A DNA stretch of 64,000 nucleotides. Source: Reyranellaceae bacterium. GTDB taxonomy: Bacteria; Pseudomonadota; Alphaproteobacteria; Reyranellales; Reyranellaceae. Under the pieces are notes generated by a model that had not been told where the DNA came from, ran no database searches, and saw only the letters and a list, made by a program, of their open reading frames with translations. The stretch is from assembly GCA_022844045.1 (NCBI GenBank), contig JALHMM010000005.1:1-64000 (forward strand). Reading direction: 5' to 3'. Both the position numbers and the translations under genes were made by a program. How positions within the stretch are numbered: position 1 is the first letter of the stretch; each line of letters starts with the position of its first letter. Of the stretch, positions 48,088 through 50,587 are shown in pieces.

Positions 48088-48576
48088 TCAGAGTGGCGGA
48101 TGATTCATCGCGTAGGCCACGACCTGCATCAGCATCTGACGATGCGAATCGGTAACCGGGTGTTGCGCGTCCGTGCCCGGCCAAGCGTGGTAATGGCCGT
48201 TGGCTAGGCCGGGGGCCAGGATGCTACCGGAGGCAGGAAGCCCGACGACCGGCCAGTGGTCGAAATCGTACCAGGCTCGGCCCTTGAATCCTGCCGGGAA
48301 GGGCAAGTACACGCCGAATGTCGCGACGTGACCATAGTCGAGGTCGGTCGCCACGCCGCCATTTGGCACCACGCTGGATCCGGACTGTGCGTAGCTGTGC
48401 ATCGTCGGATATGCGTTGTCCTTGGGCGGGAACCAGAACACCAGGGTCCTGTTGTTGTCGAGTGTCGCTTTCGGCAAGTGCGATTTGCGTAGCACCGGCG
48501 GATAGACGCCATGCTGAAACTTGAAGTCCCTCCCGCAGAAGAACTGGGCGTCGGAGAGGTCGTAGTCGTGCGCCAT
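48088..48576 (-). CDS. Hypothetical protein, AT-richer than its neighbours
   Basis: The 162-residue protein (MAHDYDLSDAQFFCGRDFKFQHGVYPPVL onward) is not recognised. It is rich in His, Tyr, Pro and Gly, with FWFPPKDNAYPTMHSYAQSGSS, PAGFKGRAWYDFDHWP and HYHAWPGTDAQHP, and has no signal peptide or membrane helix. The base composition is clearly less GC-rich than flanking genes and the upstream region is AT-rich, suggesting recent transfer. ATG 48576 follows GGGGGGAG. Its repeated His/Trp/Asp motifs could be a metal or sugar-binding surface, but this is a guess. Confidence 0.6.
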   Translation of the reverse strand: MAHDYDLSDAQFFCGRDFKFQHGVYPPVLRKSHLPKATLDNNRTLVFWFPPKDNAYPTMHSYAQSGSSVVPNGGVATDLDYGHVATFGVYLPFPAGFKGRAWYDFDHWPVVGLPASGSILAPGLANGHYHAWPGTDAQHPVTDSHRQMLMQVVAYAMNHPPL

Positions 48577-48731
48577 AGCGCTCCCCCCATCAATCGATCC
48601 GATATGTGTACTATACAAGAAATACAATCCTCAATTGCCCGGTGAATGCGACACGATCGCCACAGGAGCCGCCCTTTTCTCGCCGCATAGGTGCATAAAC
48701 TCGTCAGCGCAATCTGGGAGGGGGACCCGGT

Positions 48732-49736
48732 ATGGCGCAGAAGCGGAGGGCAGCAACGGCCGTGCAGGAGATGGACGAGGCGCCTGCGCTGCCCTCACCT
48801 GCCACCGTAACCGCCGACCACGCCCTGCTCGCCCTGATCGCCGCCGGCTTGAACTTGCGGCAGGGCAAGACCCGCGACGGCGCCGAGGTCTGGCGCATCG
48901 GCGGCAACACGCTGGCGCATCGCGAGGCCTTGCGCGAGGCCGGCGGCACCTGGAACCGGCTCGAGCAGGTCTGGGAGTTCGCCGGCGACGATCCGACCGC
49001 CGCGGTCGCCCGCGCGCTGGCGGCGAAGCCAGCTTCCCTCGGCCACAACTCGAAGGACGCCGCAGAGCGGCCGCACTACCACGGCCATCGCCAGCGCGTG
49101 CGCGATCGCGCGCTCGGCTCGGGACTCGACGGCTTCCAGGATTACGAGCTGCTCGAATTGCTGCTGTTCTACGGCATCGAGCGCATCGACACCAAGCCGA
49201 TCGCCAAGAAGCTGCTGGAGCGCTTCGGCACCTTGGGCGACGTCTTCGCCGCCGACGCCGAGCTGCTCAAGGAATTCGACATCGACCAGCGCACCCTCGT
49301 CCTGCTGCGAGCGCTGCGCGAGAGCGGCGCGCGGCTGGCGCGACGCGAGGTGGTCGACCGACCGGTGATCGCCTCCTGGCAGAAGCTGATCGACTACTGC
49401 CACGCCGCGCTGGCGCACGAGAAGACCGAGCGCTTCAACATCCTCTTCCTCGATCGCAAGAACGTGCTGATCGCCGACGAGACACAGCAGAGGGGCACGG
49501 TCGATCACACGCCGGTCTATCCGCGCGAGGTCGCCAAGCGCGCCCTGCAGCTCGACGCCTCGGCGATCATCATGGTGCACAACCACCCCTCCGGTGATCC
49601 GACACCGTCACGGGCCGATATCGAGATGACGAAAGAGGTGAAGACGGCGCTCAAGGCGGTCGGCATCGAGCTGCACGACCACCTGGTGATCGGGCGTAAG
49701 GCCAACGCCAGCTTCAGGAGCCTGGGGCTGCTCTAG
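48732..49736 (+). CDS. radC: RadC-family JAB/JAMM domain protein with N-terminal extension
   Basis: The 334-residue protein has the RadC core: HGHRQRVRDRALGSGLDGFQDYELLELLLFYGI (helix-hairpin-helix-like), LDRKNVLIADETQQRGTVDHTPVYPREVAKRALQLDASAI and the JAMM motif VHNHPSGDPTPSRAD. Despite the name, a repair role is doubtful; JAMM proteins are metallopeptidase-like. A 110-residue N-terminal region has a module LLALIAAGLNLRQGKTRDGAEVWRIGG resembling a small DNA- or peptide-binding fold and is longer than in most RadC proteins. Confidence 0.88.
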   Translation: MAQKRRAATAVQEMDEAPALPSPATVTADHALLALIAAGLNLRQGKTRDGAEVWRIGGNTLAHREALREAGGTWNRLEQVWEFAGDDPTAAVARALAAKPASLGHNSKDAAERPHYHGHRQRVRDRALGSGLDGFQDYELLELLLFYGIERIDTKPIAKKLLERFGTLGDVFAADAELLKEFDIDQRTLVLLRALRESGARLARREVVDRPVIASWQKLIDYCHAALAHEKTERFNILFLDRKNVLIADETQQRGTVDHTPVYPREVAKRALQLDASAIIMVHNHPSGDPTPSRADIEMTKEVKTALKAVGIELHDHLVIGRKANASFRSLGLL

Positions 49737-49792
49737 ACATCCAATTCTTGAAAATGATTGCCAAGGCGGGCGTGCGTGACCACATTTCACGC

Positions 49793-50587
49793 ATGCCCAA
49801 GTTCCTTCGCATCGGAGTCCACCAGTCGAACGTGTCTGGATACACGTCGAAGGCATGGTGTATTCGCCGGGTTGGCCCGACGGTTTTCCTGAAGTGGGGC
49901 GCTGTCGAGGTTCGCGGCGTGGGCGATGGACGAAAGGTCTACTGGACCATTCCACCGCGCGAGAAAACGGTTCGTTGCGGCGCGGCGCAGGCTGCCAAGG
50001 ACTATGTAAGTAGCGCGATCGCACGGCGGCGCAGCCACCGCTATGAACCGCTGACTGGAAGCATCGCCATCAAGCGCCGATCGATCAATCGTGGTGCCGA
50101 CCTCGAACAGGTGCTGGCCACGATCCTGGTTGTCGACATTGTCCGGTCCACGGAAAAAGCCGCGCGGCTCGGCGATGCGCGCTGGACTCAGGTGATGAAG
50201 CACTACTACGCCGCCGCCCGCAAAGAGCTGAAGACATGGCGCGGCAAGGAAGTCGTGACGACGGGGGACGGACTGCTCGCGACATTCGAGGCGCCGGCGG
50301 CGGCGATCCCGTGCGCGACCGCGATCCGCGCGGCTGTGCGCACGCTCGGGCTGGAGATCAGGGTGGGGCTCCACGTTGGCGAATACGAGGCGGGCGGATC
50401 CGATGTGATCGGCCTCGCCTTCCACATCGGCGCACGGGTCGCCGCGAAAGCGCGCGCTGGCGAAGTTCTGGTCTCACGCCCGGTCAAGGACCTGATGTCA
50501 GAGTCTGAGTTCCTGTTCAAGGATCGCGGCGTTCACCAGCTCAAAGGCATGCCGAAGCGGTGGCGCCTTTACCGAGTCGATTCGTAG
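49793..50587 (+). CDS. Class III adenylate/guanylate cyclase with WGR-like N-terminal domain
   Basis: The 264-residue protein has two parts. Residues 15-85 read SKAWCIRRVGPTVFLKWGAVEVRG then KVYWTIPPREKTV and AAQAAKDYVSSAI to SHRYEPL, a pattern like the WGR domain (WG pair, Gly, C-terminal helix, GY-like end). Residues 105-260 form a class III cyclase: ATILVVDIVRSTEKAARLGD (metal Asp115), TTGDGLLATFEAPAAA (metal Asp159), GLAFHIGARVAAKARAGEVLVS. It likely makes cAMP or cGMP. ATG 49793 is used; the track start is TTG 49748. No membrane helix, so cytoplasmic. Confidence 0.78.
   Translation: MPKFLRIGVHQSNVSGYTSKAWCIRRVGPTVFLKWGAVEVRGVGDGRKVYWTIPPREKTVRCGAAQAAKDYVSSAIARRRSHRYEPLTGSIAIKRRSINRGADLEQVLATILVVDIVRSTEKAARLGDARWTQVMKHYYAAARKELKTWRGKEVVTTGDGLLATFEAPAAAIPCATAIRAAVRTLGLEIRVGLHVGEYEAGGSDVIGLAFHIGARVAAKARAGEVLVSRPVKDLMSESEFLFKDRGVHQLKGMPKRWRLYRVDS

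Follow-up and report, generated by a model that had tools for sequence, protein, structure and literature searches.

Class III nucleotide cyclases with highly varied input domains are already known, and control by N-terminal domains is common among them. In Rv1900c (a.k.a. LipJ) of M. tuberculosis, an α/β-hydrolase precedes the adenylyl cyclase domain (PDB 1ybt, 1ybu), and the class III fold is also found in PycC of the Pycsar system. WGR domains, on the other hand, are found in MolR/YehI-type proteins together with DUF4132 (PDB 2ra8), and in PARPs. The WGR domain of PARP2 grips the 5'-phosphate of a DNA break via Trp151, Lys130, Lys183, and Tyr201 (PMC8190142). Loss of the WGR tryptophan much reduces or abolishes the DNA-dependent activity of PARP1-3, and the WGR arginine of PARP1 (R591) bridges DNA binding and catalysis, its loss abolishing activation without lowering the affinity for DNA (PMC4081085). 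No description of a class III cyclase fused to a WGR-type domain was found in the literature searched.

Such a fusion is probably encoded in a stretch of 64,000 nucleotides (the window) of contig JALHMM010000005.1 of a soil bacterium of the Reyranellaceae (GCA_022844045.1). The open reading frame to which a preliminary description had assigned it proved to be a real gene with orthologues (Table 1). It runs from an ATG to a TAG codon and encodes 264 amino acids plus the stop. All 15 homologues compared share the start codon, and the codons upstream of it show no conservation. In pairwise comparisons, the dN/dS ratios are similarly low in the N-terminal and the cyclase parts; judged by this measure, the reading frame is genuine and purifying selection acts on both halves of the fusion protein. 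Columns 91-108, which include the linker, are the least conserved stretch among 86 distinct homologues.

Table 1. Features of the cyclase locus, with positions in the window.
Feature	Position	Strand	Basis
Gene of the WGR-like/class III cyclase fusion	49793..50587	+	ORF, orthologues, dN/dS 0.12-0.31
Probable WGR-like N-terminal domain, residues 1-90 (W35-G36-A37)	49793..50062	+	AlphaFold, BFVD fold match, profile tests
Basic variable linker, residues 91-102	50063..50098	+	columns 91-108 least conserved
Catalytic domain (residues 103-262), predicted class III cyclase akin to LipJ/Rv1900c	50099..50578	+	PF00211, PDB 1ybt, invariant residues
radC, upstream neighbour, not counted in the system	48732..49736	+	Pfam RadC 1.5e-43
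Promoter-like conserved 29-nt element (TTGCCA-N17-CACATT)	49758..49786	+	TTGC core in 77/81 upstream regions

The C-terminal half is, as had been described, a class III cyclase with both metal-binding Asp residues. The catalytic domain matches Guanylate_cyc (PF00211) over the cut-off, at 1.6e-7, and its best solved relative is the homologous domain of Rv1900c/LipJ (PDB 1ybt; E 8.5e-42, residues 103-259). The metal ligands D115 and D159, the transition-state Arg R215, R190, and H211 are invariant in all 86 distinct homologues. According to our own mapping of residues onto the canonical cyclases, the catalytic Asn position is presumably taken by His211, the same non-canonical residue as in Rv1900c, the substrate-specifying Lys position by Val155, and the second specifying position by Asp or Glu204 (D204 in the present protein). 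Rv1900c also lacks the Lys, but has an Asn instead of the Val. Due to Val155 and Asp/Glu204 at the specifying positions, ATP is the likely substrate and GTP a less likely one. The assignment of residues 103-262 to the LipJ/Rv1900c group of class III cyclases, from which cyclase activity is predicted, is fully supported by these sequence comparisons.

Unlike Rv1900c/LipJ, however, the protein has no hydrolase domain but carries the WGR-like domain in its place. Consistently, it falls outside the LipJ equivalog family (NF058673): lacking the N-terminal hydrolase, it matches only model positions 286-448 and scores 193.5 bits, as against the >800 required for the whole protein. It does not appear to belong to a Pycsar system either. 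Apart from the common fold, only weak, general cyclase matches were obtained with PADLOC (best E 5e-5), no adjacent effector was seen, and, unlike PycC, the present cyclase has its closest relatives among LipJ-type enzymes.

The fusion has a patchy distribution. Fifteen full-length copies, including the present one, were found in 61 related genomes searched, the other copies being 77-86% identical; in the order, 24 of 76 genomes contain it, and across the class only five of 385 matched, two of them weakly and probably by chance. The family of Bradyrhizobium yielded 26 strong matches in 300 genomes. When the GTDB genomes were searched with a profile of the N-terminal domain only, 148 encoding stretches were obtained as candidate loci, 80 of which were retrieved, the majority from Bradyrhizobium or Reyranella. 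A cyclase domain follows the N-terminal domain in 78 of these; of the other two, one encodes a truncated product (L113, 113 aa) and one, likewise with a truncated product, lies at a contig end (L129, 142 aa). Neither was included when the full-length sequences were aligned. In the genomes searched, the N-terminal domain was not found in any other architecture, and plasmids, phages, and viral contigs contained no relatives of it. Weak N-terminal matches in other genomes were mostly short or frame-broken, and one that was read (in G188) was a chance match. A plasmid match that seemingly covered residues 29-260, and thus extended into the N-terminal half (H1), turned out to be a hydrolase-cyclase whose BLAST alignment had been extended spuriously. 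A plasmid of Nitrosomonas (L184:5212-8492) carries a LipJ-type hydrolase-cyclase gene near the genes for a universal stress protein and a JAB-domain protein.

In a maximum-likelihood tree, the WGR-type cyclases form a single clade (100/100) nested among LipJ-like proteins, and all five relatives scanned around this clade contain an α/β-hydrolase (Abhydrolase) domain. Because of this nesting, it appears that the α/β-hydrolase was swapped for a new N-terminal domain. The simplest history would be one such exchange, after which the fusion spread between Reyranella and Bradyrhizobium. By the evidence of the tree and the surveys, the fusion is shared by many species of these genera and has a single origin, and it joins an input domain that is new for class III cyclases to a cyclase of this known kind.

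The nature of this input domain is less evident. The preliminary description had recognized a WGR-like N terminus from a WG pair, a Gly-rich turn, an aromatic strand, and a terminal helix, and all of these elements reappeared in the alignment and the AlphaFold model (turn at 42-46, strand at 48-51, helix at 65-81). The model of the N-terminal domain, built on 62 homologues, is confident (mean pLDDT 84) and contains strands at 3-6, 19-27, 30-41, 48-51, and 56-61, the helix, and a short last strand, an order which we take to be that of the WGR fold with an inserted hairpin of ~13 residues. A full-length model from 15 sequences was poor (pLDDT 46) and was used as a hint only. In a Foldseek search of viral models (BFVD), the N-terminal model matched a protein of Agrobacterium phage Atu_ph07 named "WGR domain-containing protein" (prob 0.96, TMq 0.51, rmsd 3.4, 88 columns). 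It also matched the DNA ligase of a pithovirus (prob 0.97, TMq 0.64). In contrast, no WGR chain was among the top 50 matches in the PDB, all of which were weak, with nothing below E 0.27.

Profile comparisons gave a similarly divided picture. Residues 1-87 have no Pfam or NCBIfam match and no significant PHROG match; the WGR model PF05406 (cut-off 22 bits) does not match the protein even at E 10, and has no match anywhere in the genome. The signature motif is altered: W35-G36 is invariant, but the Arg is replaced by Ala, giving WGA in 86 of 86 distinct homologues. When aligned with MolR-type WGR domains by hhalign, residues 14-86 span the whole WGR domain with W35-G36 on its WG/YG pair, albeit at a probability of 25%, and of only 6% with a mixed WGR set. 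The MolR score was exceeded by one of 400 column-shuffled controls, and the median of 10.2 bits that a MolR-type profile reached on the family was equaled by none of 4,141 real protein windows from neighbouring proteins and by one of 4,000 shuffles, although the p-values from these controls are optimistic, as the MolR subset was picked after the resemblance had been noticed and the homologues are not independent. A broader WGR profile gave no signal on the family. In the end-to-end profile alignment with the MolR/YehI type, the SK-W spacing and the position of the WG are retained, whereas the domain differs in having WGA instead of W/YGR, an inserted hairpin, and no DUF4132 partner, and in scoring under every family cut-off. 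Thus, the domain is probably WGR-like, which we consider about two-thirds likely; this is graded as probable rather than established because the family models and the PDB fold search lend no support.

The silence of the family models and of the broad profile, together with the mixed PDB matches, which include PH domains, CapZ, and FABP, would also fit another small β-sheet-plus-helix fold, e.g., a PH-like or lipid/ligand-binding domain, that senses a small molecule, a lipid, or a protein and in which the WG pair is convergent. We consider this somewhat unlikely, since most such PDB matches have a large rmsd (often ~10 Å) and a low probability, whereas a WGR domain in register is indicated by the MolR-type profile as well as by the search of viral models. 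Moreover, residues 1-102 have a pI of 11.3 and a charge of +15.7, and such a strong positive charge fits a polyanionic ligand.

For a WGR-like domain, the comparison with PARP2 and PARP3 becomes relevant, where a nucleic-acid-binding domain of this kind is likewise joined to a signalling enzyme. In a profile alignment, Trp151, Lys130, and Lys183 of PARP2 correspond to W35, K20, and R79, whereas Tyr201 has no such counterpart; the placing of the two lysines partly relies on the PARP2 sequence as we assume it to be. K20, W35, and R79 are all invariant among the 86 homologues. The basic character of the domain and the conservation of positions that hold the 5'-phosphate in PARP2 are consistent with nucleic-acid sensing. 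Unlike in PARP2 and PARP3, the output domain is a cyclase, the regulatory helical domain is absent, and the WGR arginine is missing. As the latter is Ala in every homologue, any coupling must take another route.

The reading that we favor, and that we judge as a whole to be evenly poised between right and wrong, is that of a stand-alone, soluble cyclase of the Rv1900c/LipJ type in which a divergent WGR-like domain of strongly basic character has taken the place of the hydrolase and which is switched by nucleic acid. Two protomers would make up the catalytic dimer, and each WGR-like domain would bind nucleic acid via K20, W35, R79, and the basic helix, the ligand most likely being a 5'-phosphorylated end or a nick. 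Binding would shift the geometry of the dimer and thereby turn the synthesis of cAMP, or possibly cGMP, on or off, and the nucleic-acid signal would thus reach the cell's cyclic-nucleotide receptors, CRP-like ones among them. Receptors for the product do exist, as the genome encodes 14 cNMP-binding domains. Putative control of the cyclase activity by nucleic acid is plausible; that DNA breaks or the ends of RNA exert allosteric control over a bacterial second-messenger enzyme via a PARP-like WGR domain is a putative mechanism that we consider unlikely.

Alternatively, the WGR-like domain might bind nucleic acid but merely tether or localize a constitutively active cyclase whose activity remains unchanged. 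The Ala at the position of the coupling Arg of PARP1 and the variable, probably flexible linker would agree with such a role, but N-terminal control is common in this enzyme class, and conservation of the N-terminal domain equals that of the catalytic domain; we regard a mere tether as improbable.

The gene had also been described as adjoining radC, which is true here, where radC ends 56 nt before the ATG of the cyclase gene. In all, the 3' end of radC lies upstream in eight of 13 Reyranella loci, but radC is absent beside every Bradyrhizobium locus, where the neighbours vary. A joint function of the cyclase with RadC in DNA repair, for which this adjacency speaks, is very improbable, as neighbours differ throughout Bradyrhizobium and a promoter-like element specific to the cyclase gene stands between the two genes. 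This 29-nt element, TTGCCAAnGCnGGaaTGnnnGACTACGCT, has a conserved core, TTGC, which is present in 77 of 81 distinct upstream regions although the neighbouring genes are mostly unrelated. Since the element looks like a promoter whose two boxes are 17 nt apart, the cyclase gene is probably its own transcription unit, although a stock sigma-70 scan does not call the element. An operon with radC was rejected on the same grounds and because the link to radC is not general. The distance from the element to the ATG is 35 nt here, 37 nt in one other locus (L088), and most often ~70 nt elsewhere; a promoter at 35 nt would give a nearly leaderless message. The spacer is conserved too, which suggests binding of a regulator or autoregulation, both putative. 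A regulon sharing the element is not supported, as it occurs in a single copy in this genome within three mismatches. Of the genes around the cyclase gene, two were tested, namely radC and one for a flavin monooxygenase. The radC product itself has ~110 extra N-terminal residues (48732-49060) without a Pfam match before UPF0758_N and JAB, and beside radC lies an ORF of 179 aa (48091-48627, minus strand), also without a Pfam match.

If nucleic acid controls the cyclase, the fusion would constitute a direct biochemical link between nucleic-acid damage or invasion and cyclic-nucleotide signalling, and many Bradyrhizobium and Reyranella species would possess a switch from nucleic-acid damage to cAMP. 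As the protein is small and soluble, and should purify easily, and as it occurs in many Bradyrhizobium strains, such control is directly testable. The present genome (G000) contains 31 class III cyclase matches besides its 14 cNMP-binding domains and, thus, a rich cyclic-nucleotide network.
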